NCBI RefSeq assembly: GCF_002733835.1
Contig: NZ_NVWY01000031.1
Span: 1-64,000 of the forward strand
Length of the DNA: 64,000 nucleotides
Origin: Alcanivorax sp.
GTDB lineage: Bacteria > Pseudomonadota > Gammaproteobacteria > Pseudomonadales > Alcanivoracaceae
Direction of reading: 5' to 3'
Each line of letters begins with the position of its first letter. The first letter of the stretch is position 1. The notes under the pieces are model-generated. The model was given only the letters and a program-made list of their open reading frames with translations. It searched no databases and was not told the DNA's origin. A program made the position numbers and the translations under genes. Positions 10,851 to 45,457 of the stretch are shown in pieces.

Positions 10851-11000
10851 AAAGTTAAAAGTTTAAAGTTGAAACGCGAGTGGAGCCGGTGTGCTCTGAG
10901 CGGTAGAAGGCCGCGACTACAGCGTTGTCGAGGCTTATAGAGTCTAGCGATGGGTGCATGCCCGGGTCGCGTTTCAACTTTAAACTTTGCTCTTTCAACT
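10851..11000. repeat. Heptamer-armed inverted-repeat element A
   Basis: Left arm 10851-10879 is built from 7-bp units of AAAGTTN type; the right arm is 10967-11000. The inner 22 bp of the arms (10858-10879 and 10967-10988) are perfect reverse complements. The 87-bp interior has no open frame of note but contains AGCGTTGTCG (10921) and AGAGTCT (10939), both also present in the same order in element F. Lies between the rplI terminator and dnaB. Same arm subfamily as element B. Confidence 0.85.
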
Positions 11001-11026
11001 CTATTTCCCAACACGTTGGCTTATCC

Positions 11027-12421
11027 ATGAATGAACCCATGTCGCTGGACAAACACCTGCCTGAGAACCTGCGTATTCCTCCCAATTCGGTGGAGGCAGA
11101 GCAGGCGGTACTGGGCGGTTTGCTACTCAATAACAGCGCCTGGGATGATGTGGCCGAGCGGGTGGGCGCGCGGGATTTCTACCGTAAGGAGCACCGCCTG
11201 ATTTTCGAGGTGATTGCCCAGCTGGTGGAAGAGGAAAACCCCAGTGACCTGGTCACCGTCTCCCAGGCGCTCAATAACCTGGGGCAGCTCGAATCCATTG
11301 GTGGCATGACCTATCTGTCGGAGCTGGCCCGTAACACCCCCAGCGCGGCCAATATTACCGCTTATTCGGATATTGTCCGTGAGCGCAGTATCCTGCGTCA
11401 GCTGATCAATGTTTCACACCAGGTGGCGGATAGCGCGTTTAATACCGAAGGCCGTAAATCCCTGGAAATTCTCGATGAGGCGGAATCCTCCATCTTCGAG
11501 ATTGCCGAGCAGCAGAAGAAAGGTGACGGCCCCCAGAACATCAAGTCGGTGTTGAAAAAAGCGGTAGACCGCATTGATGAGCTGTACAAAACCAAGAGCG
11601 CACTCACCGGCCTGACCTCCGGCTTTGAAGAGCTGGATAAAATGACCGGGGGCTTGCAGCCCGCCGACATGATCGTGGTCGCTGGCCGTCCTTCCATGGG
11701 TAAGACCACCTTCGCCATGAACCTGTGTGAAAACGTGGCGATCAAAAGCAACAAGCCGGTGCTGGTGTTCTCCATGGAGATGCCGGCGGAATCCATCGTC
11801 ATGCGGATGCTCTCCTCGCTGGGGCGTATTAATCAGGGCGCGATCCGTTCCGGTAATCTGGAAAAGGATGACTGGCCGCGTATCACCTCTGCCATTCATA
11901 TGCTCAGTGAGCAGCGCTTCTTTATCGACGACACGCCGGCACTGAGTCCGCTGGAAATGCGCGCCCGTGCCCGCCGGGTGGCCCGTGAATGTGGCGGCGA
12001 GCTGGGCCTGATCATGGTCGATTACCTGCAGCTGATGCAGGTGCCGGGGGTGGAAAACCGGGTGAACGAAATTTCGGAAATTTCCCGCTCATTGAAAGGG
12101 ATTGCCAAGGAACTGAATTGCCCGGTGCTGGCCCTGTCCCAGTTGAACCGTTCCCTGGAACAACGGCCCAACAAGCGCCCGGTGATGTCGGATCTGCGGG
12201 AATCCGGGGCGATTGAGCAGGATGCGGATTTGATCGTTTTCCTGTACCGGGACGAGGTGTACAACAAGGACAGCAACGAGCGCGGTGTGGCCGAAATCAT
12301 TATCGGCAAGCAGCGTAATGGTCCTATCGGCACCGTGCGGCTGGCCTTCCGCGGTGAGTTCACCCGCTTCGATGACCTGGCGCCGGAATACTATGCCCAG
12401 CTGGCGGCAGGGGATGAATAA
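11027..12421 (+). CDS. dnaB: Replicative DNA helicase DnaB
   Basis: Hexameric helicase that unwinds DNA at the replication fork. 464 aa from the ATG at 11027, the usual length. N-terminal domain (LRIPPNSVEAEQAVLGGLLL), linker, then the RecA-like domain with Walker A GRPSMGKTTFAMN (near residue 222), Walker B LIMVDYLQLM and the arginine-finger region. The frame continues 34 codons upstream, but that extension is read from the inverted-repeat element A and is not part of the gene. An ATG at 11039 is a second possibility. Confidence 0.96.
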   Translation: MNEPMSLDKHLPENLRIPPNSVEAEQAVLGGLLLNNSAWDDVAERVGARDFYRKEHRLIFEVIAQLVEEENPSDLVTVSQALNNLGQLESIGGMTYLSELARNTPSAANITAYSDIVRERSILRQLINVSHQVADSAFNTEGRKSLEILDEAESSIFEIAEQQKKGDGPQNIKSVLKKAVDRIDELYKTKSALTGLTSGFEELDKMTGGLQPADMIVVAGRPSMGKTTFAMNLCENVAIKSNKPVLVFSMEMPAESIVMRMLSSLGRINQGAIRSGNLEKDDWPRITSAIHMLSEQRFFIDDTPALSPLEMRARARRVARECGGELGLIMVDYLQLMQVPGVENRVNEISEISRSLKGIAKELNCPVLALSQLNRSLEQRPNKRPVMSDLRESGAIEQDADLIVFLYRDEVYNKDSNERGVAEIIIGKQRNGPIGTVRLAFRGEFTRFDDLAPEYYAQLAAGDE

Positions 12422-12502
12422 AACGCTGGACGCTAGACGCCGGATGCCGGATGCGACGTCCCGTTCTTTAAACGTCAGGCGTCAGGCGTCCGGCGTTGGG
12501 CT
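12422..12502. repeat. Heptamer-armed inverted-repeat element G
   Basis: The left arm starts at the base after the dnaB stop codon and consists of 7-bp units (ACGCTGG, ACGCTAG, then variants) to about 12460. The right arm (12471-12501) is the reverse complement of ACGCCGG/ACGCCTG units. The arms match imperfectly (about 19 of 24). Ends 9 bp before the alr ATG. Same subfamily as H and I. Confidence 0.75.
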
Positions 12503-12511
12503 GCACCTGCT

Positions 12512-13573
12512 ATGAGAAGCACCCGAGTCGAAATTCGTCCTTCTGCGCTGGCGCATAATGCGCGTCTGGCCTGGCAACTGGCTGATGGGGCTGAGGTGTT
12601 TGCCATGGTCAAGGCCAACGGCTACGGGCACGGCCTGTTGCGGGCGGCGGATGCCATGCACGACAACGTGTCGGGCCTGGGGGTGGCGCTGGTCGAAGAG
12701 GCACGTGCGCTGCGAGAACACGGCATGACCTTGCCGATTCTTGTGGCCGAAGGCTTCTTCGATGCCGAAGAGCTGAAGGAGGCGGAGCGGCTATCCCTTG
12801 AGGTAGTCGTGCACTCGTTATGGCAAGTGGATTTGCTGCTGGCCAGCCCTTGCCCGGTGCGCATCTGGTTGAAAGTGAACACGGGCATGAACCGTCTTGG
12901 TTTTCGTCCGGACACGGCCCTGCAGGCAGCGGCGCAATTGCGGGCAGCGGGAATGGCACCGGTGGGTGTCATGAGCCATTTTGCCTGTGCGGATGTGAGT
13001 CAGGATACCTATTCCGAGAAACAGCTGCTGGTCGCCGGGCAGATCGCGGAGCAACTGATGCTGCCGTTATCGGCGTCCAACTCGGCAGCGCTGCTGCGTT
13101 ACCCCCAGGCCCGCGCGCAGCGGGTGCGTCCCGGCATCATGCTGTACGGCTCGTCTCCTTTCGACTGGCAAACGGCCAGCGAGCTGGGCCTGGCGGTCAG
13201 CCACCGGTTTACCGCCCGTGTAATTGCCATTAATGCGGTGGAGGCAGGTGAAAGTGTGGGCTACGGCGCGACCTGGACCGCAGCTGAACCCTGTCAGGTC
13301 GGTGTGGTCGCCGTGGGCTATGGCGATGGCTACCCGCGGCATGCCCCCAGTGGTACGCCGGTGGCCGTGAACGGGGTTGTCACGCAATTGGTGGGCCGTG
13401 TTTCCATGGATATGCTTACCGTTGACGTGACCGGGCTGGGTGCCAGTGTGGGTGATGAGGTGGAATTATGGGGCGACGTGGTGGATGTGGATGACGTTGC
13501 CCGCGCCTGTGGCACCATCAGTTATGAATTATTCTGCCAGATCACCGGTCGACCGGAACGCATCATCGTCTGA
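12512..13573 (+). CDS. alr: Alanine racemase
   Basis: PLP enzyme making D-alanine for peptidoglycan. 353 aa. The PLP-binding Lys34 sits in AMVKANGYGHG and the catalytic Tyr251 in ESVGYGATW; residues VGRVSMDM (substrate and PLP contact) and the C-terminal beta domain are present. It follows dnaB, as in many gammaproteobacteria, with the heptamer element G in between. Confidence 0.96.
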   Translation: MRSTRVEIRPSALAHNARLAWQLADGAEVFAMVKANGYGHGLLRAADAMHDNVSGLGVALVEEARALREHGMTLPILVAEGFFDAEELKEAERLSLEVVVHSLWQVDLLLASPCPVRIWLKVNTGMNRLGFRPDTALQAAAQLRAAGMAPVGVMSHFACADVSQDTYSEKQLLVAGQIAEQLMLPLSASNSAALLRYPQARAQRVRPGIMLYGSSPFDWQTASELGLAVSHRFTARVIAINAVEAGESVGYGATWTAAEPCQVGVVAVGYGDGYPRHAPSGTPVAVNGVVTQLVGRVSMDMLTVDVTGLGASVGDEVELWGDVVDVDDVARACGTISYELFCQITGRPERIIV

Positions 13574-13584
13574 TTCGACGTCGC

Positions 13585-13761
13585 TGTAGGAGCGCCACTT
13601 GAGGCGCGAACAAAACAGTTACAAGTTGCGAGTAGCGAGTTTCGAAAACCAAACCTATCAGGCCCGGCAGGTTCCTGTTGTGCTTTTCGCTACTCGAAAC
13701 TCGTTACTCGCTAACGCTCGTATCCGCACCTCAAGCGGTGTTATTCGCTACGTTCCTGCAG
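13585..13761. repeat. Composite: heptamer element C nested in a REP-like pair
   Basis: Inner element: left arm about 13625-13647 (units TAGCGAG, TTTCGAA) and right arm 13684-13715. GCGAGTAGCGAGTTTCGA at 13628-13645 matches the reverse complement of 13694-13711 in 17 of 18 positions. Outer copies: CTGTAGGAGCG..CCACTTGAGGCGCGAA at 13585-13610 and a diverged inverted copy ending at 13761 (reverse complement CTGCAGGAACG, then ACCGCTTGAGGTGCG). It fills the alr-radA gap. Arm sequence as in element D. Confidence 0.75.
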
Positions 13762-13799
13762 TGGCTTTGTAGATAGCAATACACGAGAAGGACTTGTTT

Positions 13800-15167
13800 G
13801 TGGCCAAGAAAAAAATCGCGTTTGTATGCACGGATTGCGGAGCGGATTTTCCCAAATGGCAGGGGCAGTGCCCGGCATGCAATGCCTGGAATACCTTGCA
13901 GGAATTTGTCCACGACCCCGCCACACCCTCGTCCAAAGGGGCGGGCAGCCGCGGCGGTTTTTCCGGCCAACTGTCAGAAGTGCAGAACCTCAACGATATT
14001 GTGCTGGAGGAAACCCCGCGCATTGGTTCCGGCATGGGCGAGCTGGATCGCGTGCTGGGTGGTGGGCTGGTGCCCGGCTCGGCGATCCTGATCGGCGGCC
14101 ACCCTGGTGCCGGTAAATCCACCTTGCTGCTGCAGACACTGTGCAAACTCTCGGACAGCCAAAGCTGCTTGTATATCACCGGTGAGGAATCCCTCTCCCA
14201 GGTGGCCATGCGCGCCGATCGTTTGAAACTGCCCAAGGAAAAACTGCGCCTGGCGGCGGAAACGGATGTGGAACAGATTCTGGAGCTGGCCCGTAAGGAA
14301 ATGCCACGCATCCTGGTGGTGGATTCCATTCAGGTGATGTTTCTCGCGGCGTTGCAGTCAGCGCCGGGGAGTGTGGCCCAGGTGCGCGAATGTGCGGCAG
14401 CCCTGACCCGCTTTGCCAAACAAACCGGCACCGTGTTGCTGCTGGTGGGGCACGTTACCAAGGACGGCACCCTGGCAGGGCCCAAGGTGCTCGAGCATAT
14501 GATCGATTGCTCACTGATGCTGGAAGGCTCCACGGATTCCCGCTTTCGCACCCTGCGCGGCCTGAAAAACCGTTTCGGGGCGGTGAATGAGCTGGGGGTG
14601 TTCGCCATGACTGGCGAGGGCCTGAAAGAAGTGAAGAACCCGTCTGCCATTTTCCTGAATCGGGCTGATGAGATTGCCTCGGGCTCGCTGGTTACCGTGG
14701 TCTGGGAAGGTACACGACCGTTGCTGGTAGAGCTGCAGGCGTTGGTGGATGCCTCCCATTTTGGCAACCCCAGGCGTATCTGTGTGGGACTGGAAGGTAA
14801 CCGACTGGCCATGTTGCTGGCGGTGCTACACCGTCATGGTGGTATCCAGGTGGGCGATCAGGATGTGTTCATGAATGTGGTTGGTGGGGTCAAAGTGACG
14901 GAAACCGCCGCGGACCTGGCCCAGGTGCTGGCGATTGTGTCCAGCTTCCGGGACCGTGCGCTGGAGCGCGAGTTGGTGGTGTTTGGTGAGGTGGGGTTGT
15001 CCGGTGAGATCCGGCCGGTTCCCCAGGGGCAGGAGCGGCTCTATGAAGCGGTGAAGCACGGCTTCAAGAAAGCCATCGTTCCCAAAGCGAACCTGCCAAG
15101 AAAACTGCCCGATGGTGTGGAAATCATCGGTGTGAGCAATGTGGCCGAGGCGCTGGAGTACCTTTGA
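13800..15167 (+). CDS. radA: DNA repair protein RadA
   Basis: RecA-like ATPase that helps process recombination intermediates and branch migration. 455 aa. N-terminal four-Cys zinc finger (CTDCG...CPAC), Walker A GGHPGAGKST, the RadA-specific KNRFG motif, and a Lon-like C-terminal domain. The frame also has a TTG at 13794, but GAGAAGGA (13785-13792) lies 7 bp from the GTG at 13800 and only 1 bp from the TTG. The GTG also gives the family N terminus (V/MAKKKIAFVC), so I choose it. Confidence 0.95.
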   Translation: MAKKKIAFVCTDCGADFPKWQGQCPACNAWNTLQEFVHDPATPSSKGAGSRGGFSGQLSEVQNLNDIVLEETPRIGSGMGELDRVLGGGLVPGSAILIGGHPGAGKSTLLLQTLCKLSDSQSCLYITGEESLSQVAMRADRLKLPKEKLRLAAETDVEQILELARKEMPRILVVDSIQVMFLAALQSAPGSVAQVRECAAALTRFAKQTGTVLLLVGHVTKDGTLAGPKVLEHMIDCSLMLEGSTDSRFRTLRGLKNRFGAVNELGVFAMTGEGLKEVKNPSAIFLNRADEIASGSLVTVVWEGTRPLLVELQALVDASHFGNPRRICVGLEGNRLAMLLAVLHRHGGIQVGDQDVFMNVVGGVKVTETAADLAQVLAIVSSFRDRALERELVVFGEVGLSGEIRPVPQGQERLYEAVKHGFKKAIVPKANLPRKLPDGVEIIGVSNVAEALEYL

Positions 15168-15325
15168 TCAATTGACAGTTGATAGTGGATAGTTGGCAGC
15201 TCGCGAACTGAGCGTTGTCGTTGTTTTAGATGGTTGAGGCCGCGTCCAGAGTCTCGGCGCGGGATTAAACACCTGATGAAATGACGGCGCTACCCCCGCG
15301 CCGCTGTCAACGATCAACTGTGATC
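15168..15325. repeat. Heptamer-armed inverted-repeat element F
   Basis: Left arm 15169-15200 (units AGTTGAT, AGTGGAT, AGTTGGC) begins 1 bp after the radA stop. The right arm, 15302-15325, is complementary but one unit shorter. The stop codon of the convergent membrane-protein gene (15314-15316) lies within the right arm, so this element joins two stop codons. Arm subfamily shared with element E; interior words shared with element A. Confidence 0.8.
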
Positions 15326-15760
15326 CGGGTGGAGGGTCACACGGTCACCTTGGGCCCAGCACCAGGCATCGACCACGTCGAAGAACAGGCTAATGGCGTT
15401 GACCATGAATACCGCAAGGGTAAAACCCCACAGTGCCGGTGTCAGGTGATCGTCGCCCCAGCGCCCCGCCAATTGCCCGAGCAGGGCGATTTCCAGTGGA
15501 ATCCAGGCTAGCAGGTGCACCAGTGACATGTCTTTGTTCATGCCGCGGTGGTGCCACATCAGGGGCAGGTTCACGGCGAGGACCAGCAGCAGGGCCAGCG
15601 CGATGGCCTGGCCAGAGAACGTATCCAGCAACAGCAGACTGGCCCCGTTGAGGGGCATCAGGATAAGGGCGACCCAGCCCTGCAGCCAGCGTGGCAGGTT
15701 GCGAAACGACAACCAGATGCTATGCAGGCGGTGTGTGGTGGTTGCGTGGTAGGCGTCCAT
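15314..15760 (-). CDS. Inner-membrane protein of unknown function
   Basis: 148 aa with four hydrophobic segments (about 27-48, 52-70, 80-98, 108-128), so probably a four-span inner-membrane protein. No family recognised. His-rich N terminus (HATTTHRLH). A good ribosome site (AGGAG) precedes the ATG. Follows the DUF547 gene by 27 bp on the same strand and is likely co-transcribed with it. Its last two codons and stop are inside the right arm of repeat element F. Confidence 0.7.
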   Translation of the reverse strand: MDAYHATTTHRLHSIWLSFRNLPRWLQGWVALILMPLNGASLLLLDTFSGQAIALALLLVLAVNLPLMWHHRGMNKDMSLVHLLAWIPLEIALLGQLAGRWGDDHLTPALWGFTLAVFMVNAISLFFDVVDAWCWAQGDRVTLHPDHS

Positions 15761-15787
15761 GCCATGTTTCTCCTAGAGTGGGTTAGG

Positions 15788-16573
15788 TTACTGGGTGTTC
15801 AGTGACCAGTCATAGGGTAAAAACTGCACCTCCAGGTCCCCGTCGTCCAGTGCCTTTTGGCGATTGGCGGGTATGCCCAGCGTGTCCGAGTATTGCAGAA
15901 GGTAATGGGACAGGCTGCCGGCGGCATCTTCAAAATCGTCTTCATACCAGTCGAAAATCTTCGAGACTTCCAGGGCGTCCTGCTCGCTGTTGTAGCGATT
16001 GCGTTGTTTGTCGCTGAGAAATTGCCTTGTACTGTCCTCCAGTTGCGTATCCAGCTGGTCACCGGTGTAGGCGGTGGTGCGCAGGGCGGGGCAGCCGATG
16101 GACGCGCAGTTCACAGCGAAATGAATGCGCGGGTCCATCAGGTCTGGATTGCCACGAATCATTTCATGTTCCAGTTCATCCAGCGTCCGGGACTCTCCCA
16201 GCAAGGAAAAGAATGCCTTGTCCCAGGGGCTGGAAAAGAGATTGCCAATATCGCGAATCGAGTCAGGCTGATTTTCCCGAAGGATCAATTCAATGGTAAA
16301 GGCGTTGTAGGCGTTGATCAGGAACGCCAGTTTTTCATTGCGACTGAAGGCGTTGAATTCACCTTGAGTGACTGCGGAAAGACTGTCCAGATACGATTGC
16401 AGGGCCTCATGGTTCTCGGCGACTCCATCATAGTCCACTGCCGTGGCAACGCCGCCGCGCTGCGGTTGCACATGTTGCTGCAGCAATGTGTTCCAGCGGC
16501 TGTGGTCAAACGCCATGACCTGACTGCTTAACAAAAGCAGGCTGATCACCAGTGCGGACATCCATTGACGCAT
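15788..16573 (-). CDS. DUF547 domain-containing secreted protein
   Basis: 261 aa with a signal peptide (cleavage after QVMA). The body carries the DUF547 pattern: LAFLINAYNAFTIELIL near residue 100, IHFAVNCASIGCPALR near 167, and SKIFDWYEDDFE near 218. The biochemical function of DUF547 is not established. A strong ribosome site (AAGGAG) precedes the ATG. It sits downstream of the PepSY and TonB-receptor genes, which suggests an envelope role linked to that block, but this is inference. Confidence 0.8.
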   Translation of the reverse strand: MRQWMSALVISLLLLSSQVMAFDHSRWNTLLQQHVQPQRGGVATAVDYDGVAENHEALQSYLDSLSAVTQGEFNAFSRNEKLAFLINAYNAFTIELILRENQPDSIRDIGNLFSSPWDKAFFSLLGESRTLDELEHEMIRGNPDLMDPRIHFAVNCASIGCPALRTTAYTGDQLDTQLEDSTRQFLSDKQRNRYNSEQDALEVSKIFDWYEDDFEDAAGSLSHYLLQYSDTLGIPANRQKALDDGDLEVQFLPYDWSLNTQ

Positions 16574-16631
16574 GGGAGGCTCCTTGTGGTCGTCAGCTTT
16601 CAGTTAAGCATGGAAGGGGGGCAACAGGGCG

Positions 16632-17762
16632 TCAACGTGCCTGTTGCCGTGCCCGCTTGCGGCGTTGTGCCTGCAGGCGAAGCTGGCGTTTTTGCCACCA
16701 CATGTAGGTGCCGGTGATAAAGAACAGCAAGGGCGTCAGCCCGCTGATCAGGACGATGATGCGCCCCGGCATGCCCAGGGCATCACCATTGTGGAGCGGG
16801 AACTGCCAGGTCATGAGCTGGCTGCCGGCGGCCACATTGGGGGCGTCCCATACCGCCAGTACCTCGCCGCTGTACTGGTCTACCCAGATACGGCTGGCGC
16901 CGTAATGCTGCCAGGGTTCTCCGTCCCGGTTGAACGCCAGCGAATAACTGCCGGTTTCACTGCGGGGGAAATCGAGGCGAATCAGCGGCGCCTGTGGGAA
17001 AACGGTGCGGGCAATATCCAGTGATCGCTGCGGGGAAATAGAGGGGGTGCCCGGGCTGTCCGGTAGCGTTGATGAAGGCGAGGGGCGTTTTTCCAGAGGG
17101 AGCACGGCATCCACCAGCGCCGCGACCTGGGTCGGGAAAATCAGGGTGACCCCGGAAAAGGCGACCACCAGCAGTACCGGGAGAAAATAGATGCCGATGA
17201 CCTGGTGCAGATCAAAGTGTAATCGGTAGGTGCCGCCGCTCCGTTTAATGGTCAGGTTGCGACGCCACTTTCCCTTGCGCTTGCCGGTGGGCCACCACAG
17301 GTAAACGCCGGTCAGACAGAAACCGAGCAAGCACAGGCCAAGCACGCCAACCACAATCTCGCCAATTTCGCCGGACAACAGGGTGTAATGCAGGCTGTAG
17401 ATCCAGGTCATCAGGTAGTCGCCCCAGGTGCGAATCGCAAGCACCTCGCCGGTATAGGGAGAGACGCTGACCTGAATCGGGCCGGGTTCGCCCGGTGGAG
17501 CAAAAAAGCGCAGGGTGTGGGGGCTGCCGGGGGCCTGTGCCGGCTCGATACGCAATGCTTTGCGGCCCAGCTCGGCTTCGGCGTTGGCGACGATGTCGTT
17601 AAGGGGAAGCGTGCTTTTCCCCTGAGTCATCAGTTGCGGATTGAGCGACTCGTCCAGCCCCTCATGGAAGACCAGTAAACTGCCGCTGAGGCCGATAACC
17701 ACCAGCAACAGCCCGGTGATCAGGCCGGTGTATTTGTGTAAAGTGAAAAGCAGGTTGCGCAT
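16632..17762 (-). CDS. PepSY-associated TM protein (PiuB-like)
   Basis: 376 aa inner-membrane protein of the PepSY_TM family, which often lies beside siderophore receptors and is thought to help reduce or handle iron from siderophores. The N terminus LLFTLHKYTGLITGLLLVV is the family hallmark, with His8 a possible heme or metal ligand. Further spans lie near 140-160, 190-210 and 340-360, with periplasmic PepSY domains between. The C terminus is strongly basic (KRQLRLQAQRRKRARQQAR). Downstream of the receptor gene but behind a terminator, so partial read-through or a separate promoter is needed. Confidence 0.85.
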   Translation of the reverse strand: MRNLLFTLHKYTGLITGLLLVVIGLSGSLLVFHEGLDESLNPQLMTQGKSTLPLNDIVANAEAELGRKALRIEPAQAPGSPHTLRFFAPPGEPGPIQVSVSPYTGEVLAIRTWGDYLMTWIYSLHYTLLSGEIGEIVVGVLGLCLLGFCLTGVYLWWPTGKRKGKWRRNLTIKRSGGTYRLHFDLHQVIGIYFLPVLLVVAFSGVTLIFPTQVAALVDAVLPLEKRPSPSSTLPDSPGTPSISPQRSLDIARTVFPQAPLIRLDFPRSETGSYSLAFNRDGEPWQHYGASRIWVDQYSGEVLAVWDAPNVAAGSQLMTWQFPLHNGDALGMPGRIIVLISGLTPLLFFITGTYMWWQKRQLRLQAQRRKRARQQAR

Positions 17763-17779
17763 AAAGTATCAGGCTCGGA

Positions 17780-17808
17780 AATAAAACGGGCAGCCATTGG
17801 CTGCCCGT
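17780..17808 (-). terminator. Terminator after the second TonB receptor
   Basis: Read on the minus strand, ACGGGCAGCC, loop AAT, GGCTGCCCGT (10-bp perfect stem), then TTTATTT. It lies between the receptor stop and the PepSY gene. Confidence 0.8.
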
Positions 17809-17827
17809 TAGCTAGCTGGGCGACTTA

Positions 17828-24497: not shown

Positions 24498-24574
24498 TTG
24501 CGAGATGCGAGTAACGAGTTTCGAAAGGCAAAACCCGGAAGGGTGATCACGCTTTTGATCTTCGTTACTCGCTA
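24498..24574. repeat. Heptamer-armed inverted-repeat element D
   Basis: The left arm 24498-24525 is exactly four 7-bp units (TTGCGAG, ATGCGAG, then TAACGAG and TTTCGAA variants). The right arm 24561-24574 carries two complementary units; the core GCGAGTAACGA (24507-24517) is perfectly matched at 24562-24572. Arms and interior words (CCCGG.AGG, GCTTTT) resemble element C. It lies between the arsM stop and the VTT/flavoprotein gene. Confidence 0.75.
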
Positions 24575-36211: not shown

Positions 36212-36285
36212 TAATGGTGCGCAAAATGTTGATTTTGCAAGCGCGCTCCGACACAGGTGGAGTAGCAGGGTAGAGGTCAACCTAA

Positions 36286-36547
36286 GGAGCCTCTGAATAA
36301 CTCCTTGCGTGCTCAGCGAGACCTGAAGCGTGCAGCTGTTGTGTCTTGTCTCGACGGACAGGGTGGTTCCCTTTCCTAGAGGCAAGGCACAGCAGATGGG
36401 CGCTTCAGGCCGCGCCCTCCGGGTCTTCCAGGCTGGCCCGCACTCGTCGTTACAATTTCTCGATGGATGGACATACACCTTCAAAATTGTGCCTAGATTA
36501 CGAACCAGCCTGAAAGACTGAGCATGCAAGGAGTTATTCAGAGCCCC
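36286..36547. mobile_element. MITE-like element, IS5-type ends
   Basis: 262 bp bounded by terminal inverted repeats of about 30 bp sharing CTCTGAATAACTCCTTGC (left GGAGC.., right GGGG..; about 28 of 31 match with one 1-nt indel) and flanked by the 4-bp duplication CTAA (36282-36285 and 36548-36551). IS5-group transposons typically duplicate CTAR or YTAR. No transposase frame, so it would need a transposase in trans. It fills most of the gap after the barrel gene. Confidence 0.85.
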
Positions 36548-36631
36548 CTAAGCCTATCTTCGCCGAGATAACCATGGTTGATTAAACTTGAGTCCAAGTC
36601 GGGTGATGCTCTCATGTCTGGCCGCAGCAGC

Positions 36632-36662: not shown

Positions 36663-36692
36663 AGTGTTTCGCCTGGCATGATTTCGTTCTCA

Positions 36693-36722: not shown

Positions 36723-36745
36723 GAAAAACCAAATGTATAACCGGG

Positions 36746-37738
36746 TTAATAATCAAAGGCGCTGGCGGAAAAGTGGAGCTCCAGATCGAAATCTTTACTT
36801 AGCCCGAGAGCGTCAACCGTGCCACTCAGGCTGGCAGTAATCTCGGTGCCTTCATCGCCCAGCCGTGTCCCGGTCAATTCCTTGATATTCAAGGAGTTGA
36901 CTTGAGCGCTCTCTGCATCGACCAGCTCAAGAATTTTGTCTTTCAGTTGTTGAATAGTGATCGCCTCATTCATGGTGTAGGGCTCATTGCCGAATAGAGC
37001 TTCGCCATCGACCGTGCCGCTATAGGTGAGTGACCATTGGACAGGGTAGCCAGCGTGCAGGCTTCCCAGGCTGTCCTCGACATTACTGAGCGCTCCAATT
37101 GTAATAGTGTCGTTTTCGGATAGCTCGTCCAGACCTGCTTGAATCGCTTCTGGCAGGATAGCGGTGTTGAAGAAGTTGAATCCCCCCATAGTGCCAGCGA
37201 TTTTCGTTAGTTGATCCGCAAAGTCCTGGTTGCAGTAATCGTTTTGAGGGTTCTGCTCCCAGTTATCCCAGTTGTCGAACAAATCCGGGGAAATGCCGGA
37301 GGTTTGCTCCATGGTGTAATGGGTCAGGGCATTGGCATTGACCCGGTTGCCGGATGCGTACACGGTGTTGCACAGTACGCTGTAGTACTCGGCATTTTCT
37401 TCTCCGTTCAGAGTGGCCCGCACCAGAACGGGGGCCTGCAGGCCGAAGAATGGGTGGTGGGCATCCTCATCATCTTCGTCGAACTCATCACTCCAGATGA
37501 AATGGCCGTTGTTATCTGTTGTCAGGCGCTTGCGATCACCGTGAGCATCCTTGATGTCTACGGTTGCCCCCAAGGCGGGATTGCCATAGGCATCTGTTAC
37601 GCTGCCCTGTAGCAATACGGCTGCTGTGGTGTTGTCTTCGTCATCGTCATCGGTGACATCTGTGAGCTTGCAACCGCTTAGCGCCAGTCCGCTGAGAGCA
37701 ACGACCATCGCCAGTGTCCATTTCTGTGTTGATTTCAT
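36746..37738 (-). CDS. Lipoprotein with carboxypeptidase-regulatory-like domain
   Basis: 330 aa. Lipobox LALSGC (Cys23) is followed by an acidic tract (DVTDDDDEDN). Residues about 45-100 (QGSVTDAYGNPALGATVDI, TTDNNGHFIW) form the carboxypeptidase-regulatory-like beta sandwich seen in surface proteins. The rest is an unrecognised domain with two Cys (CNTVY and DYCNQDF) that could pair. Probably co-transcribed with the upstream TraF-like barrel gene, 15 bp away. Surface location is inferred. Confidence 0.75.
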   Translation of the reverse strand: MKSTQKWTLAMVVALSGLALSGCKLTDVTDDDDEDNTTAAVLLQGSVTDAYGNPALGATVDIKDAHGDRKRLTTDNNGHFIWSDEFDEDDEDAHHPFFGLQAPVLVRATLNGEENAEYYSVLCNTVYASGNRVNANALTHYTMEQTSGISPDLFDNWDNWEQNPQNDYCNQDFADQLTKIAGTMGGFNFFNTAILPEAIQAGLDELSENDTITIGALSNVEDSLGSLHAGYPVQWSLTYSGTVDGEALFGNEPYTMNEAITIQQLKDKILELVDAESAQVNSLNIKELTGTRLGDEGTEITASLSGTVDALGLSKDFDLELHFSASAFDY

Positions 37739-37753
37739 CTTGTTTCCCCCAGT

Positions 37754-38929
37754 TTAAATCTTGAAACCCAGTTGTAATGCCGCGCCCAAGGTGTCGCCTT
37801 CGCCGACGGCGGCACTCAGGTCGATATTGAATCGGTCAAAGGGCGTGATGCCGATGCCCGCTGTCACCAGGTTGGAGACATTGCTCTGAATATCCGTGCG
37901 ATAACCGGCGCGTAAATGAATATGGCGGCCAGCAGAAAATTCAGCGCCAGCTCGCAGGTACTGGGTATCTTCCAATAACTCGAAACCATTGCGTTTGGTC
38001 AGGTCGATATTGGCTTCCAGCTTCATCCAGTTATTGTATTGAAAGCCGAATGCGGTGGTGATGACAGGCGCCATTTTGTACTCAGTGTCATTGGGCCCGG
38101 AAAAAGTCTTTGGGATAAGGTTCTCAATGGTTGCCGCAACAATGTACTGCTTCTTGTCGCCCAGGCGAGCAAGGGCCCCGAGATCCAGATTGAGATTGGT
38201 GTGTGATTCGAGGTTGTCAGAATCGGTCATGTCATCGGCCTCGAAGGCCGAGGGGGTGGCTGAATAGTGGATCAGTTCGATCGTCTGGACTTTTACTGTA
38301 GCGCCGGTTTCCAGGGTGGTGCCACGAATATCGAAATTATGCCCGCCCATCAGGCCGTATTCGTGTACCCATACCAGGGAAGAGTCCGCCGTGGATTGCA
38401 GGTCATCTTCATCCGCTGCGCCATCAGCAATGTCTTCCAATACCTGGCGGTCACTATCTATATAGGTTGTGCTGACGCCTGCGGACGCTTTTGCGCGGCT
38501 CACGAAGGCGGCGGGCATAAAGCGATTGGGTACGCCCACCATAACGGCGCCGCCGGCATCCAGCTGGAGTTGCTTGTCACTGAGTGACTGGAGTGTGCCT
38601 TCCGCCTCATCAATGGCGTCATCTCTCTCCGGCCCTGCTGGTGGAGGGTTGTCCTCCAAGTCTTCAATCTGGTCACTGAAGTCGTCCAGCTCATCAACCA
38701 TGCCATCCTGATCGTAGGCGATGGCGCCCACATTCAGGGCGAAGCTGAATGCATCTTTATCGTCGTAGGTATTGATCAGGGCCGGGTTGTAAAGCGCCTG
38801 ATTGTACTCCCCCATGGTCATCCCCGCGCCTCCACGTGCCATGGCACGGGCATCATGGATCTCGGCGTTAGCCAGACATGGCAGCAGGGTGGCGGCTGAA
38901 ACCGCAGCCGCAAGCGTGCGTAGCTTCAT
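37754..38929 (-). CDS. TraF_2-type outer-membrane protein
   Basis: 391 aa. Signal peptide to CLANA, then IHDARAMARGGAGMTMGEYNQALYNPAL, the start of the 'plasmid transfer operon TraF' (TraF_2) domain found in chromosomal outer-membrane proteins resembling long-chain fatty-acid transporters. The C terminus (LGAALQLGFKI) is strand-like. Despite the name, no conjugation genes are nearby, so a role in transfer is not implied. A helical acidic insert (DELDDFSDQIEDLEDN) lies near residue 85. First gene of the pair with the lipoprotein. Confidence 0.78.
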   Translation of the reverse strand: MKLRTLAAAVSAATLLPCLANAEIHDARAMARGGAGMTMGEYNQALYNPALINTYDDKDAFSFALNVGAIAYDQDGMVDELDDFSDQIEDLEDNPPPAGPERDDAIDEAEGTLQSLSDKQLQLDAGGAVMVGVPNRFMPAAFVSRAKASAGVSTTYIDSDRQVLEDIADGAADEDDLQSTADSSLVWVHEYGLMGGHNFDIRGTTLETGATVKVQTIELIHYSATPSAFEADDMTDSDNLESHTNLNLDLGALARLGDKKQYIVAATIENLIPKTFSGPNDTEYKMAPVITTAFGFQYNNWMKLEANIDLTKRNGFELLEDTQYLRAGAEFSAGRHIHLRAGYRTDIQSNVSNLVTAGIGITPFDRFNIDLSAAVGEGDTLGAALQLGFKI

Positions 38930-39931
38930 TATTTTTCCCCAGTTTTATTAATAATGAAAAATGGCAAACCGGGAGGGATCTTATTGGAAAAAAAACTTCA
39001 CAACATCCCCCATTTGGGTGATGTTGATCATGCCGCCTCTCAGTGCCGGCTTTCTTGCGGCTCAGGCCGAAAGTGTGGATCAGCCGTTCCACGGCGGCGT
39101 TGAAGGGAGGGGGGGCTCCGGGATTTTGCTCCGGTTCTGTCGGACCAAGCCCTGAGTGAGACGCTTTGTGGCAAGGCATGCCGACCACGGTAAGCGGGTG
39201 GCTTTGGTCCGGGTGTTGCAGGCTGACTGCCTGATTCTGCAGCTTCTGGTCGTCTTCCGGGTAGTAGGCCCTGAAGCTCTGCTTGGTCTGTACCAGAGTG
39301 GAGTGAGAGGCTCCAGCAGATGGGGGGCACAGATCGTTGGGTTTGACGATGAGGCGGTAGTTAAGAGTGGGTGGCGAATCTGGCTTCGTCGTGCCGGGAG
39401 ACAAGGCCAACTTTACTAATGGGGCCGCGACTCTGAAGCTGGTAGACGGGGTCGTATTTGGCCATGCCCAGCCGGTAGGACGGTTCAGCGACTTTGGGCA
39501 GACCATCATGTGCCGCGTATTCTGGTGATAGTCTTCCACATGGATGCTGCTGGATTGGGCGCTCAGCCGTCGGCACAGCTCGGTAATGTCCAGGCCTCAG
39601 TGTTCGGGACGGCGTGGGGCTTCATAAATATCCCCGATGCACTGAAGAATATTGTCTGTAGCGCTACCCTGAACGGCGCATCCAGAGATGCCCGATTTCA
39701 CCTGGAGTCGTTTTTTCCCGCAAATTCTTATTGCAATCCCCTGTCGGGATTTTTGTGTAGGCAGCCTTGCCGACCTCTGATAAATAAGGGTGCCCCATGT
39801 CTCTTGGGGGTAGGGGCGTCTCAAGTCCGGTGTAGGGTCATTGAGAAATGAAAAGCCTTCATGTGCCAACCCGCCGGGTTTTGGGTAGAATATGCGCCCC
39901 AATCCACTCTTAGCACGTTGACAGGTAGCCC
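38930..39931. other. 1-kb intergenic region without a convincing gene
   Basis: Several overlapping open frames exist on both strands, the longest on the minus strand at 38868-39539 (223 codons), but it overlaps the TraF-like gene, is Pro/His/Ser rich and looks like no known protein. A decayed gene is possible. A likely -10 for glyA, TAGAAT, lies near 39887-39892 (GGGTAGAATATGCG), with no clear -35. Confidence 0.4.
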
Positions 39932-41188
39932 ATGTTCCCGAAATCCATGTCCATCGCCGAGTTTGACCCGGAAATCAAAGCGGCCATCGAGGCCGAAGAG
40001 CGTCGTCAGGAAGAGCATATCGAGCTGATTGCGTCTGAAAACTATGCTTCGCCGAGGGTCATGGAAGCCCAGGGCTCCGTACTGACCAACAAGTACGCCG
40101 AAGGCTACCCGGGCAAGCGTTACTACGGCGGTTGCGAGAACGTGGATGTGGTTGAGCAGCTGGCGATTGATCGCGCCTGTGAGCTGTTCGGCGCCGACTG
40201 GGCCAACGTGCAGCCGCATTCCGGTTCCCAGGCCAATGGCGCGGTTTACATGGCCATGCTGAAAGCGGGCGACACCGTGCTGGGCATGAGCCTGGACGCG
40301 GGTGGTCACCTGACCCACGGCGCCAAGCCGAACTTCTCCGGCAAGACCTACAATGCCATCCAGTACGGCCTGGACAACGAGACCGGCCTGATCGATTACG
40401 AGCAGGTGGCCTCCCTGGCCCGCGAGCACAAGCCGAAAATGATCGTGGCGGGCTTCTCTGCCTACTCCCAGGTGGTGGACTGGCAGCGTTTCCGTGACAT
40501 CGCCGACGAAGTGGGCGCGATCCTGCTGGTGGACATGGCCCACGTGGCCGGTCTGGTTGCCGCAGGCGTCTACCCCAGCCCGGTGGGTATTGCCGACATC
40601 ACCACCACTACCACCCACAAAACTCTGGGTGGTCCCCGTGGCGGCCTGATCATGGGCAAGGCCAACGAAGAGATTCAGAAGAAGATCAACTCTGCCGTGT
40701 TCCCCGGTGGCCAGGGTGGCCCACTGGAGCACGTGATTGCCGCCAAGGCGATCTGCTTCAAGGAAGCCATGCAGGGGGATTTCAAGGGTTACCAGCAGCA
40801 GGTAGTGAAGAACGCCCAGGCCATGGCCGGCGTATTCATCGAGCGGGGTTTCGACGTGGTATCCAACGGCACCGAAAACCACCTGTTCCTGCTCAGCCTG
40901 ATCAAGCAGGACATCACCGGTAAAGATGCCGACGCCGCCCTGGGCCGCGCCAACATCACCGTGAACAAGAACGCCGTGCCCAACGACCCGCGTTCCCCGT
41001 TCGTCACCTCTGGCCTGCGCATCGGCTCCCCGTCCATCACCCGTCGTGGTTTTGACGAAGCGGATGCCAAGGCATTGGCTGGCTGGATTTGCGACATCCT
41101 CGACAATATGGGCGATGAGTCTGTGATTGAGAGTGTGAAAGGCAAGGTGAAGGAAATCTGTGCGCGGTTGCCGGTTTATGAGCGGTAG
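39932..41188 (+). CDS. glyA: Serine hydroxymethyltransferase
   Basis: PLP enzyme converting serine and tetrahydrofolate to glycine and methylene-THF. 418 aa, standard length, with [15 protein letters not shown] near residue 30, [20 protein letters not shown] and the PLP Lys in [14 protein letters not shown]. In gammaproteobacteria glyA often precedes nrdR and the riboflavin genes, as here. Confidence 0.97.
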
Positions 41189-41194
41189 AAGATG

Positions 41195-41659
41195 AGTTGA
41201 CAGTTGACAGTGGATAGTTGACAGCGAAAAGCAAACAATACGTAGAGTCACGGATGACGAGAAAGTATGCAGCGCGGGAGAAATCCCGCGCTTTTGCTTT
41301 GCGGATGATAAAGGTTTATCAGTATCTGCAAGAGCAGAAGCGAGAATACATATTAAGTAAGCAATTGCTGCGCAGCGGAACAGCAATTGGAGCCTTGGTC
41401 AGGGAAGCAGAGCAGGCCGAGAGTCGTGCAGACTTCGTGCATAAATTGTCTATCGCTCTGAAAGAGGCTAATGAAACGGAATATTGGCTGGAGTTGTTGA
41501 TGGAGTCCGGCTATTTGGAGCCTTCGTCTGGTCAGCCGGTTATGGCTGACGCCAAAGAGTTATTGAAGATATTGACGGCAATTATCAAAACCACCAAAAC
41601 TCGCAGATAATCGGGTTTCAAGGTTTTAGCTGTCAATTGTCAACTATCAACTGTCAACT
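41195..41659. repeat. Heptamer-armed element E carrying a four-helix-bundle gene
   Basis: Left arm 41195-41225 and right arm 41629-41659 are each 31 nt and, once reversed, align without gaps at 27 of 31 positions. Both consist of four AGTTGAC-type heptamers plus AGC. The 465-bp unit begins 6 bp after the glyA stop and ends 9 bp before the nrdR ATG, and encloses one gene. The smaller element F has the same arm subfamily but no gene. Confidence 0.88.
41254..41610 (+). CDS. Four-helix-bundle protein (23S rRNA IVP type)
   Basis: 118 aa, basic N terminus (MTRKYAAREKS), entirely helical in character. LLRSGTAIGALVREAEQAES and FVHKLSIALKEANETEYWLE are characteristic of the small four-helix-bundle family found in 23S rRNA intervening sequences and related to Avd of diversity-generating retroelements. 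Family members are thought to bind nucleic acid or protein; function is not established. The frame opens at a TTG (41218) inside the repeat arm; I use the first ATG beyond it. No ribosome site is strong. It sits inside inverted-repeat element E. Confidence 0.85.
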   Translation: MTRKYAAREKSRAFALRMIKVYQYLQEQKREYILSKQLLRSGTAIGALVREAEQAESRADFVHKLSIALKEANETEYWLELLMESGYLEPSSGQPVMADAKELLKILTAIIKTTKTRR

Positions 41660-41668
41660 GGGGTTCCC

Positions 41669-42163
41669 ATGTACTGCCCGTTTTGCTCCGCCCAGGACAC
41701 CAAGGTGATCGACTCCCGTCTGGTTGCGGATGGGGTGCAGATCCGTCGTCGCCGTGAGTGCTTGAGCTGTACCGAGCGCTTTACCACCTTTGAAACAGCA
41801 GAGCTGGTGATGCCGCGCCTGGTGAAAACCGATGGCACCCGCCAGCCGTTCGATGAGGCCAAGCTGCGTGCGGGCATGCTGCGGGCGCTGGAGAAACGGC
41901 CGGTGAGCATGGAAGACCTGGAAGCCGCAATCAGCCGGATTTGTCACCGTCTGCGTGCCACCGGCGAACGGGAGCTGCCGGCCCGGGAGTTGGGCGAGTT
42001 TGTCATGGAAGAGCTGCAACAGTTGGACGATGTGGCCTATGTGCGTTTTGCGTCGGTGTACCGCAGCTTCCAGGACATTTCCGAGTTTTCCGCTGAAGTG
42101 GACCGCCTGAAAAAAGCCGGTGGTAAGTTGGGAGACACGTTGGACGAGCCGAAAGAGTCGTGA
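41669..42163 (+). CDS. nrdR: Transcriptional repressor NrdR
   Basis: Repressor of ribonucleotide reductase genes that senses ATP/dATP. 164 aa: N-terminal zinc ribbon ([17 protein letters not shown], then [12 protein letters not shown]), then the ATP-cone domain ([18 protein letters not shown]). Its stop overlaps the ribD GTG by 4 bp. Confidence 0.96.
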
Positions 42164-43308
42164 GCTTTTCTGCTGCCGACCATCAGTCTATGAGCCGGGC
42201 GCTGCAACTGGCGCGCCAAGGCCTCTACACCACGGACCCTAACCCACGAGTGGGGTGTGTGCTGGTGCGTGATGGCGCCGTGGTCGGTGAGGGCTTTCAT
42301 GCCCGGGCCGGCGAGCCCCATGCCGAGCGTCATGCGCTGGCGGCGGCTGGCGATCGGGCTCAGGGAGCCACGGCCTATGTCACTCTGGAACCTTGCTCCC
42401 ATACCGGGCGTACCGGCCCCTGCGCGGATGCGCTGGTGGACGCCGGGGTGGCGAGGGTTGTTGCGGCCATGGAGGACCCCAATCCCCAGGTGGCGGGGCA
42501 GGGGCTGCAACGGCTGGCGGATGCCGGCATTGCGGTGGCGTCGGGATTGCTGGAAACGCAGGCCCGGGAATTGAATCCGGGGTTCATTGCCCGGATGACC
42601 CGGCAGCGACCTTATATTCGCATCAAGATTGCCGCCAGTGTGGATGGCCGCACGGCCATGGCTAGTGGGGAGTCCCAGTGGATCACCGGCCCGGCGGCGC
42701 GGGAAGATGTGCAGCGCCTGCGGGCCCGCAGTTCAGCGGTGGTCACCGGTGTGGGGACGGTGCTGGCGGATCGGCCTTCCTATACGGTACGCCCGGCGCA
42801 ATGGACCCTGGCGGACTATCACGGCAAGCCGGGAGACCATAATCAGACGGGCCGTGACTGGGTGCGCCAGCCGTTGCGAGTGATTCTGGACAGAACCCTG
42901 CGCACGCCGCCGGATGTGCCGGTGGTCAGTGCGCCGGGGCATTGCCTGCTGGTGGCTGGGGAACAGCACCCGGGGCGCCAGAATGCGCTGGAATCCGCCG
43001 GAGCTGAGGTCATGCACTTGCCGGCCTCTGGCTCCGGGATCGACCTGCAGCAGTTGCTAATCGAATTGAACCGGCGCGAATGTAATGAAGTGCTGGTAGA
43101 ATGTGGCGCCACGCTGGCCGGTGCGTTTGTTCGTGAGGGCCTGTTCGACGAAATTCTCGTCTATATGGCACCGGCCCTGTTGGGCTCGTCAGCCCGGCCG
43201 TTACTGGGGCTGCCGCAGTTGGCCAGCATGAGCGAGAAGGTGGCGTTGCGTTGGCAGGATGTGCGCCAGATTGGCGATGATCTGCGTTTGACGCTGGTTC
43301 CGGCGTAA
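42160..43308 (+). CDS. ribD: Bifunctional pyrimidine deaminase/reductase RibD
   Basis: Second and third steps of riboflavin synthesis. 382 aa from the GTG at 42160, in a 4-bp overlap with nrdR. The deaminase zinc site is [11 protein letters not shown] and [11 protein letters not shown]; the reductase domain starts near [18 protein letters not shown]. Normal length. Its last codons are followed 2 bp later by repeat element B. Confidence 0.95.
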
Positions 43309-43310
43309 TG

Positions 43311-43463
43311 AGTTTAAAGTTCAAAGTTGAAAGTTAAAACGCAGATGAGGGCGGTGCGAGGTTGAGTGGTTGGCGTCGCGATTACCGGTGAACGCGGGCG
43401 CGGAACGGACAACAGGCAAGGCTCTGCCCGCGCTTTTCAACTTTGAACTTTAAACTTTCGACT
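43311..43463. repeat. Heptamer-armed inverted-repeat element B
   Basis: Left arm from 43311 in 7-bp units AGTTTAA, AGTTCAA, then AGTTGAA and AGTTAAA types; right arm to 43463. 43311-43332 and 43435-43456 are perfect 22-bp reverse complements. It begins 2 bp after the ribD stop. Arm subfamily as in element A. The interior is about 100 bp without an open frame. Confidence 0.85.
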
Positions 43464-43509
43464 CAATACCGACGTGTCTGGTCTGCGAGCCTGACGCAGG
43501 AGAGTTTAC

Positions 43510-44175
43510 ATGTTTACCGGCATTATCGAATCCATGGGCAAGGTGGCCGCCATGACCCCGAAAGGCGGCGATGTGACCTTGCTGATCAAGAGCGAAGGGC
43601 TGGACTTTTCCGATGTGCAGCTGGGCGACTCCATCGCAGTGAACGGCGTATGCCTTACCGCCACCGCGTTGCCTGGTGGTGCCTTTGAGGCGGATGTATC
43701 CGGGGAAACGCTGTCGCTGACCTCGCTGGCGCAAATCAGCGTGGGCAGCACGGTGAACCTGGAAAAAGCCCTGACTCCGTCCTCCCGACTGGGTGGCCAC
43801 CTGGTCAGCGGTCATGTGGATGGCCTGGGCAAGATTGTCGAGATGAAGCAGGATGCCCGTTCGGTGCGTATCGATATCGAGGCACCGGCGGAGTTGGCCA
43901 AGTACATTGCCCACAAGGGTTCAATCACCGTCGATGGCATCAGCCTGACGGTGAACAGTGTGGCCGGAGCGGTGTTTTCCCTGAACATTATTCCGCACAC
44001 CCAGGAGGTCACCACCATCGGCCAATGGCAGGTGGGGACGCCAGTGAACCTGGAAGTTGATATCATAGCCCGCTATCTGGAACGTCTGCTCCTGGGAGAG
44101 AAGGCCGCCGAGCCCACTTCCGAGGGGATTTCCATGGCGTTCCTGGCGGAAAACGGGTTTATCAAAGGCGTCTGA
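43510..44175 (+). CDS. ribE: Riboflavin synthase (alpha chain)
   Basis: Dismutates two lumazines to riboflavin. 221 aa made of two homologous lumazine-binding folds (MFTGIIESMGKVA and HLVSGHVDGLGKI near residue 97). Named ribC in some species. Ribosome site GGAGAG. The TGA stop lies inside the left arm of repeat element H. Confidence 0.95.
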   Translation: MFTGIIESMGKVAAMTPKGGDVTLLIKSEGLDFSDVQLGDSIAVNGVCLTATALPGGAFEADVSGETLSLTSLAQISVGSTVNLEKALTPSSRLGGHLVSGHVDGLGKIVEMKQDARSVRIDIEAPAELAKYIAHKGSITVDGISLTVNSVAGAVFSLNIIPHTQEVTTIGQWQVGTPVNLEVDIIARYLERLLLGEKAAEPTSEGISMAFLAENGFIKGV

Positions 44176-44199
44176 CGTCAGACGTCGGACGTCAGACGC
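44168..44199. repeat. Compact heptamer palindrome H
   Basis: 32 nt of four heptamers (GCGTCTG, ACGTCAG, then ACGTCGG and ACGTCAG types) plus ACGC. Arms 44168-44179 and 44188-44199 are exact reverse complements with an 8-nt loop. The left arm contains the ribE stop codon (44173-44175). Same subfamily as G and I. Confidence 0.75.
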
Positions 44200-44270
44200 A
44201 AGGCCGGCTGGCAGAAAGTCTGCGGCGGCGGTGCGTTATTGACCGCAGATGAATTGAAGGCAGCAATTGT

Positions 44271-45380
44271 ATGCAACTCAACAGTATTGAAGAACTGATC
44301 GAAGATATCCGTCAGGGAAAGATGGTTATTCTGATGGACGATGAGGACAGGGAGAACGAAGGCGACCTGGTGATGGCGGCGGAGCATGTGACTGCTGAAG
44401 CCATCAACTTCATGGCCAAGTACGGCCGTGGCCTGATCTGCATGCCCATGTCCCGCGAGCGCTGTGAGTTGCTGGATCTGCCGTTGATGGTGCAGAGCAA
44501 TGGCAGTGGTTTTGGCACCAAGTTCACGGTGTCTATTGAAGCCCGCGAAGGGGTGACCACCGGGATCTCTGCCGCCGACCGTGCCCGCACCGTGCAGGCG
44601 GCCGTAGCCCGCAATGCCCGCGCCTATGACATTGTTCAGCCGGGTCACATCTTCCCGCTGATGGCGGAGCCGGGTGGCGTGCTGCGCCGTGCCGGTCACA
44701 CCGAAGCGTCCTGCGATCTGGCGGCGCTGGCCGGTTGTGAGCCGTCCGGGGTGATCTGCGAAGTGATGAATGAAGATGGCTCCATGGCGCGCCGGGAAGA
44801 CCTGGAAGTGTTTGCTGCAGAGCACGACTTGAAGATCGGCACCATCGCCGACCTGATCCAGTATCGCGCCCTGAACGAACAGACCATCGAGCAGGTGTCT
44901 GACCACGAGCTGGATACCTGGTACGGCGATTTTCGCCTGGTGGCGTTCCGAGACACCGTGGACGGCTTGACCCACGTGGCGCTGGTGAAAGGCGAGATCA
45001 GTGAAGACGAAGAGGTCACGGTACGGGTGCATCAGGTGGACCCGCTGCGTGATCTGATGAGCGCCAAGATGAATGGCCGCACCGGCTGGAACATGCACCG
45101 GGTGCTGGAAACGGTTTCCCAGTCGGATGCCGGGGTGGTGATTATTCTGGGCCAGGATTACGCCTCCAACGATATCGTCGAGCGCCTGGATGCTTTCTTC
45201 GGCGGCACCGCTGGCAAGCCCAAGGGCGAGTCCCGTGCGTACCGCAACATCGGCACCGGTTCCCAGATTCTGAAGGCACTGGGCGTGCGCAAAATGCGCC
45301 TGCTCAGCTCCCCGATGAAATTCAACGCGTTGAGTGGTTTCGACCTGGAAATCACCGAGTACGTGGACGCGGATAGTTGA
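44271..45380 (+). CDS. ribBA: 3,4-dihydroxy-2-butanone-4-phosphate synthase with degenerate RibA domain
   Basis: 369 aa. The RibB half (about 1-205) has the catalytic signatures [19 protein letters not shown] and [13 protein letters not shown], and supplies the four-carbon unit of riboflavin. The RibA-like half (about 206-369) keeps the fold ([23 protein letters not shown]) but lacks the three zinc cysteines and the GTP-contact residues of GTP cyclohydrolase II, so a separate ribA is required. This lesion is common in gammaproteobacterial RibBA. GAAGG precedes the ATG. Confidence 0.93.
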
Positions 45381-45384
45381 ATGA

Positions 45385-45457
45385 GACGCCCGATGCCTGA
45401 CGCCTCAGGCCTGATGCTTGCGATTTTAGCGTTGGGCATTGGGCTTTCGGCGTCAAG
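45385..45457. repeat. Heptamer-armed inverted-repeat element I
   Basis: The left arm (45385-45422) consists of 7-bp units GACGCCC, GATGCCT and related; the right arm (45428-45457) is the reverse complement of GACGCCG and AATGCCC-type units. Arms are diverged but keep the 7-bp phase. Begins 4 bp after the ribBA stop. Subfamily of G and H. Confidence 0.65.

Follow-up and report, generated by a model that had tools for sequence, protein, structure and literature searches.

Inverted arrays of 7-bp units enclose genes of the 23S rRNA intervening-sequence protein family and mark candidate mobile elements in Alcanivorax

We analysed a 64,000-nt stretch (the window) of contig NZ_NVWY01000031.1 of Alcanivorax sp., part of a 3.6-Mb draft genome (G000), in which an earlier note had described nine intergenic loci (A to I) with inverted-repeat arms made of tandem heptamers. 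We propose, with a probability of about two in three, that these arms are the ends of intergenic mobile elements of the type of the 23S rRNA intervening sequences (IVSs), which on sequence comparison appear homing-like and accompanied by satellites lacking an open reading frame (ORF). In the complete form, a single gene for an intervening-sequence protein (IVP) would be enclosed by a pair of inverted arrays of 7-bp units, as in element E and at three further loci of the genome, one of which holds a pseudogene.

Element E lies between glyA and nrdR, not within a 23S rRNA gene. Its parts are as follows:
41195..41230, + strand: left heptad arm of element E (AGTTGAC AGTTGAC AGTGGAT AGTTGAC AGCGAAAA), from the inverted-repeat listing and the strict detector
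41254..41610, + strand: gene within E for a 118-aa four-helix-bundle protein of the 23S rRNA IVP family (start codon of our choice)
41624..41659, - strand: right arm of element E, inverted, from the inverted-repeat listing
The arms (36 nt, 86% complementarity) are present where the earlier note listed an inverted-repeat locus, but the gene that they enclose had been overlooked. A profile search of 41218-41610 matched the E protein to PF05635 (23S rRNA-intervening sequence protein; E-value 2.2e-25), and the protein also matched TIGR02436 (four-helix bundle; 3.2e-29) and the solved structure PDB 2rld (3e-36). Related IVPs crystallize as pentamers.

Four PF05635 genes were present in the genome, one with an internal stop and one of the four within the window. 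All four were enclosed by inverted arms with a best lag of 7, and their heptads were all different (GACGTC, GACGCC, AGCTACG and AGTTGAC classes). The genome-wide PF05635 search gave no match inside the short window elements, whose heptad classes were the same as or similar to those of the IVP loci. We suggest that the short forms (A to D and F to I) are ORF-less relatives with similar arms, probably reliant on an IVP in trans. The closest named relative of one of the genome's IVPs, among the matches listed, was from Alcanivorax nanhaiticus (91%), which agrees with the genus assignment. The IVP pseudogene (locus L001, 1501-1809) had one stop codon, and its heptad arms were still well-formed. 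At locus L003 (1330-1420), one arm had 13 perfect copies of GAGCTAC and the other a few imperfect copies.

Searching with eight IVP proteins confirmed at least 586 relatives, the best 80 of which, with 250-bp flanks, we used for counts across phyla. By record title these came from Pseudomonadota, Planctomycetota, Verrucomicrobia, Bacteroidetes, Clostridia, Gracilibacteria and others. The strongest lag in the range 4-12 was 7 in the flanks of 66/80 IVP genes, 8 in 5/80 and 6 in 4/80; in control windows elsewhere in the IVP loci, lag 7 was best in 21/148. The inverted-arm score exceeded all 60 shuffles at 58/80 loci. Wrong-locus pairing and polarity were counted on 79 of the 80 loci, and 44/79 lay above the 99% level of wrong-locus flank pairings (control windows, 1/148). 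A strict joint test was passed by 41/80 IVP loci and by 0/80 with shuffled flanks. E-like IVP genes occurred in 13 other genomes among the 369 genomes of the class searched, and the strict joint test was passed by 13/13.

Heptad sequences varied widely between loci, and the constant features were the period, the inversion and an inward AG reading. We observed inward AG at a fixed heptad phase in 60 of 88 strong lag-7 flanks (158 flanks in total) and CT in 12. The flank-lag and joint tests support a single family with inverted arms in strict 7-bp phase, as the earlier note had it, and show that it reaches many phyla. That two DNA turns would let a protein read the heptad phase is speculation; from these comparisons, the IVP is a candidate for such a phase-reading protein. 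A lag-8 preference in the flanks of three IVP genes (L074, L076, L086) and a lag-6 preference at a fourth (L095) may be variants of the spacing rule.

In this genome, the strict detector (inverted pairs at most 600 bp apart, best lag 7, mean identity at least 0.66) recovered five of the nine window loci (A, B, C, D and E; F, G, H and I were missed). It found 15 lag-7 pairs in the window and a further 292 kb of the genome, 5 in the window and 10 elsewhere. Lags 4-6 and 8-12 gave zero pairs at 0.66 in the same sequence, as did dinucleotide shuffles. The 7-bp phase of the inverted arms is real. At a looser threshold of 0.6 we observed a few off-7 pairs (lag 6 in G006, G007 and G029; lag 9 twice in G007; lag 12 in G030) and four pairs across all shuffles together. 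AGTTNNNx3 had 126 matches in this genome, with long arrays counted several times as overlapping matches; the same AGTT pattern respaced to 8 had 0. A chance origin of the heptad arms is ruled out by the shuffles, the spacing-8 pattern, the control windows and the shuffled flanks. The arms could also be a neutral by-product, with tandem heptads arising by replication slippage and matching arms by template switching at quasi-palindromes. Unit number does vary, as in the 13-copy arm of L003, and both arms change together. We consider this origin very improbable, as period 7 was dominant across phyla with other lags rare, and the arms surrounded one protein family with one polarity retained.

We then compared fixed sites between genomes. 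By eye, the same gene gap in related species held elements of differing heptad class and interior, or no element (L190 was lost from this comparison of window gaps). An IVP element was present at glyA-nrdR in the 19 genomes examined (171 pairs). Element identity was 98.1% in G000/G010 (flanks 92.2/84.5%), 70.9% in the close relatives G000/G013 (flanks 94.2/94.7%) and 72.5% in G016/G014 (flanks 98.2/95.8%). The element exceeded both flanks in 13/171 pairs, which were non-independent and came from two species groups. In the five pairs displayed, identity changed at or within ~40 bp of the element ends (glyA stop, nrdR start). The site upstream of cysC behaved similarly, with element identities of 97.3% in G005/G002 (flanks 82.3/89.2%) and 66.3% in G008/G007 (flanks 89.0/90.6%); L019 and L132 had no anchor and were left out there. 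Related genera had an empty glyA-nrdR junction with the same gene order (9 bp in G017, 5 bp in G019, 24 bp in G021), and the G018 and G020 regions gave no anchor. The E protein was under purifying selection (median dN/dS 0.11 for the 91 usable of 171 pairs; 80 were dropped). We suggest that at fixed sites such as these two, diverged relatives from other species take the place of whole elements, with breakpoints on or close to the ends of the arms, which would amount to homing-like behaviour.

In an IVP tree of 46 rows (the L001 pseudogene, L019, L027 and duplicates were left out), clades tracked sites, with 8 label changes compared to a minimum of 7 and a shuffled mean of 23.8. G032 and G025 (another genus) were nested in a well-supported glyA-nrdR group, and the placement of G029 was weakly supported. 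Neither glyA nor nrdR was found in the 1.5-kb flanks of the 13 E-like genes outside the family (0/13), so protein type alone does not fix the site. G003 had two IVP genes (L018 and L132) ~3.9 kb apart, one near cysC and the other at a different site.

Pairing of the arms was retained: 17/37 paired columns had changed on both sides with 85% of cells paired, in arms chosen for pairing, and by eye the units sharing a heptad position changed together. Folding predicted strong stems for seven window elements (z -3.5 to -5.8). Both observations would fit intergenic regulatory hairpins that the host maintains (as attenuators or RNase III sites) and that ordinary homologous recombination exchanges, with the IVP as a captured gene, and MacGregor 2015 (PMC4679880) proposes regulation by heptamer repeats. 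This explanation is quite unlikely in our view. The empty junctions in G017, G019 and G021, the turnover of class and interior at one site with identity changing near the element ends, and the spread of the IVP over many phyla all argue against it.

We assessed the ORF-less satellites by the distribution of one heptad class. At least 20 AGTTNNNx3 matches were found in 18/24 IVP-positive genomes vs 0/33 IVP-negative genomes, a count inflated by relatedness because all 18 rich genomes belong to two genera. Members of the same genus with an IVP had 4.2 (G000), 2 (G013), 6 (G006), 6 (G004) and 6 (G007) pairs per 100 kb. The same-genus genome G015, which is without an IVP, had 0 pairs in 200 kb, or 1 once the threshold was loosened. 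Its elements at sites A, G and E had heptads that looked decayed by eye. ORF-less interiors were homologous at different sites, the B interior (ribD-ribE gap) of G007 and the H interior (ribE-ribBA gap) of G011 being 77% identical over 96 nt (score 101 vs a shuffle maximum of 32). Such matches between B and H sites exist, but a homogeneous miniature inverted-repeat transposable element (MITE) is ruled out: 22/31 interiors of at least 30 nt had no blastn match to any other, and the largest group had 5 members. AATT heptads were a weak candidate for a genome-wide counterpart of the E class, with several in G009 only.

The ORF-bearing form codes for an IVP and no transposase. Y1_Tnp, the one transposase searched for, was matched in 18/18 IVP-positive and 9/15 IVP-negative genomes (33 genomes searched), and no transposase with matching ends was found. 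The elements could be of the repetitive extragenic palindromic (REP) kind, moved by a Y1 transposase of the REP-associated tyrosine transposase (RAYT) type, with the IVP a passenger or an accessory of Y1. The 18/18 count fits this, as do the few decayed-looking elements of G015, which lacks both IVP and Y1, and the REP-like sequences on both sides of element C. Yet the nine IVP-negative genomes with Y1_Tnp had 0-4 AGTTNNNx3 matches each, and among the proteins looked for it is the IVP that sits inside the arms across phyla. We regard this REP-like reading, with the IVP as passenger or accessory, as unlikely, but a Y1 transposase may take part in the movement. The same-genus contrast cannot separate IVP from Y1, because G015 is without either.

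Passages of PMC10053308 describe PF05635 as resembling Avd, the accessory protein of diversity-generating retroelements (DGRs). DGRs require a reverse transcriptase, whereas 12/18 IVP-positive genomes, this draft included, had no RVT_1 match and 6/18 had one; drafts may miss genes, and reverse-transcriptase dependence is not supported by these counts. One protein, L027 (G051), had a weak PF05635 match below the cut-off and was Avd-like by eye, with no obvious heptad arms in its flanks by eye.

The sequences themselves show IVP genes between the arms, the period, the polarity, identity jumps specific to the elements, the tie between IVP clade and site, and purifying selection on the protein. 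For the proposed IVS-type elements, we suggest the following mechanism. The IVP, a relative of Avd, would grip the folded arms, as a DNA hairpin or an RNA stem, with contacts every 7 nt. It would then bring the element to a partner site, either another element or the same gene junction, where it would be copied in by host recombination or by a Y1 transposase acting in trans. A broader and more tentative version, possible but rather doubtful, is that these are phylum-spanning minimal mobile elements that encode neither a nuclease nor a transposase nor a reverse transcriptase. In this version a four-helix protein would recognise the folded inverted arms by their 7-nt spacing rather than by their sequence, and would drive its own site-specific homing together with that of many ORF-less satellites; rRNA IVSs, the Xanthomonas GGGAATC repeats and other heptamer repeats in bacteria would all be products. 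An IVS-type reading of the elements would connect the origin of the rRNA intervening sequence and S23, unexplained bacterial heptamer repeats and a widespread four-helix family, and make these testable. If true, spacing-locked, sequence-diverse ends would be a new criterion for recognising mobile elements.

Several observations weigh against the mobile-element interpretation. The elements contained no catalytic gene, and a target duplication was not readable at the empty sites. For the majority of the 171 glyA-nrdR pairs, conservation was lower in the element than in the coding flanks, which fits fast evolution alone, and short recombination tracts could account for part of the swaps. The strict joint test was failed by 39/80 IVP loci. 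Both neighbours were on the IVP strand at 35/72 loci and both opposite at 10/72 (8/80 loci were skipped). The link between IVP and satellites draws on two genera and, for the most part, a single heptad class, and the one same-genus genome without an IVP also lacks Y1 transposases. The relation to pair density breaks down in the wider family, where 1 pair per 100 kb was counted both in G029, which has two IVP genes, and in G030, which has none. G005 had three IVP genes, yet 2 AGTTNNNx3 matches. The unmatched interiors belong here as well. The strand counts show no strong operon bias, and looping-out of an operon transcript as RNA is therefore not a general explanation.

The elements share features with several known repeats. 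Like MITEs and REP sequences or bacterial interspersed mosaic elements (BIMEs), they are short, ORF-less, inverted, intergenic and present in many copies per genome; unlike these, they have no conserved terminal sequence, and only the 7-bp period is conserved. REP sequences are conserved short palindromes with a 5' tetranucleotide. The arm sequences here differ widely between elements and have the period in common. Tandem heptanucleotides are also a feature of the cyanobacterial short tandemly repeated repetitive (STRR) sequences. As in the 23S rRNA IVSs of Coxiella and Leptospira, an IVP/S23 ORF lies between terminal inverted repeats. The 428-nt Coxiella IVS has, according to sections of PMC4990558, three tandem GACAGAT heptamers upstream of the S23 ORF, and horizontal transfer is suspected there as it is for the elements described here. 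Unlike the rRNA IVSs, the present elements sit between protein genes, have ORF-less satellites and appear to be swapped at fixed sites.

Two literature claims of the earlier note did not hold. It had stated that heptads were not known as inverted pairs, but parts of Rehm 2015 (PMC4692102) report 70 convergent GGGAATC pairs in Xanthomonas campestris. These, together with the direct repeats of Beggiatoaceae (PMC4679880), also contradict its statement that the family was not known in gammaproteobacteria. The Xanthomonas repeats are tandem heptads in inverted pairs, as here; Rehm 2015 describes them as quadruplex repeats, unlike here, and the terms 'S23' and 'intervening' are absent from its main text. 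GGGAATCx3 was found in G422 only, among the 369 genomes of the class, and we infer that G422 is a Xanthomonas. Its single PF05635 match (L236) is enclosed by inverted GGGAATC arms, with accB and accC on either side, and spans profile positions 1-64 only, in the frame reported. Three of the four other GGGAATC sites were inverted pairs, 45-171 bp apart. For Beggiatoaceae, sections of MacGregor 2015 (PMC4679880) describe heptamer direct repeats that are mostly intergenic and patchy over phyla, with one inverted case, and state of the TAACTGA repeats that 'no mechanism is evident'. The TAACTGA repeats of Beggiatoaceae and cyanobacteria resemble ours as intergenic tandem heptamers in patchy phyla, but they are mainly direct. 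The terms 'four helix', 'intervening' and 'S23' are absent from the text portion of that paper. No published link of heptad arms to the IVP was found in searches of open-licence papers.

The remaining window elements are as follows (the inverted-repeat listing required arms of at least 18 nt):
10846..10879, + strand: element A, left arm, AGTTTAA class, rplI-dnaB gap (inverted-repeat listing)
10967..11000, - strand: element A, right arm (inverted-repeat listing)
12422..12451, + strand: element G, left arm, GACGCCGG class, dnaB-alr gap (fold; ends by eye)
12471..12498, - strand: element G, right arm (fold; ends by eye)
13617..13645, + strand: element C, left arm, AGTAGCG class, alr-radA gap, REP-like sequences on both sides (inverted-repeat listing)
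13687..13711, - strand: element C, right arm (inverted-repeat listing)
15175..15192, + strand: element F, left arm, AGTTGAT class, weak (inverted-repeat listing)
15304..15321, - strand: element F, right arm (inverted-repeat listing)
24507..24527, + strand: element D, left arm, AGTAACG class (inverted-repeat listing and strict detector)
24552..24572, - strand: element D, right arm (inverted-repeat listing)
43311..43332, + strand: element B, left arm, AGTTYAA class, ribD-ribE gap (inverted-repeat listing)
43435..43456, - strand: element B, right arm, perfect complement of the left (inverted-repeat listing)
44170..44199, no strand: element H, single GACGTC heptad array, ribE-ribBA gap (by eye)
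45385..45418, + strand: element I, left arm, GACGCC class, after ribBA (fold; ends by eye)
45430..45457, - strand: element I, right arm (fold; ends by eye)

The earlier note had ascribed one architecture to all nine loci. Paired arms were listed for A to F, and G and I, which are GC-rich and absent from the listing, formed long stems when folded (z -4.4 and -3.5, respectively); H is a self-palindromic array (44170-44199) beside which no second arm was visible by eye. A to D, F, G and I had a MITE-like layout (terminal inverted repeats, no ORF), and H is one array only. The perfect 22-nt pairing claimed for A (10858-10879/10967-10988) and B (43311-43332/43435-43456) was confirmed by the inverted-repeat listing, and the arms of F were weak (18 nt, 83%). 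At gathering scores, the sole Rfam match in the window was a tRNA and there was none at the heptad arms, which rules out a known RNA family for them. The REP-like sequences (TGTAGGAGCGCC...) flanking element C lie at 13587-13612 and 13718-13740. Elsewhere in the window, nested inverted repeats at 36282-36552, with arms of 35 and 37 nt and without heptads, resembled another insertion element, and a terminator-like perfect 19-nt hairpin with a loop of 11 nt was present at 53139-53187.

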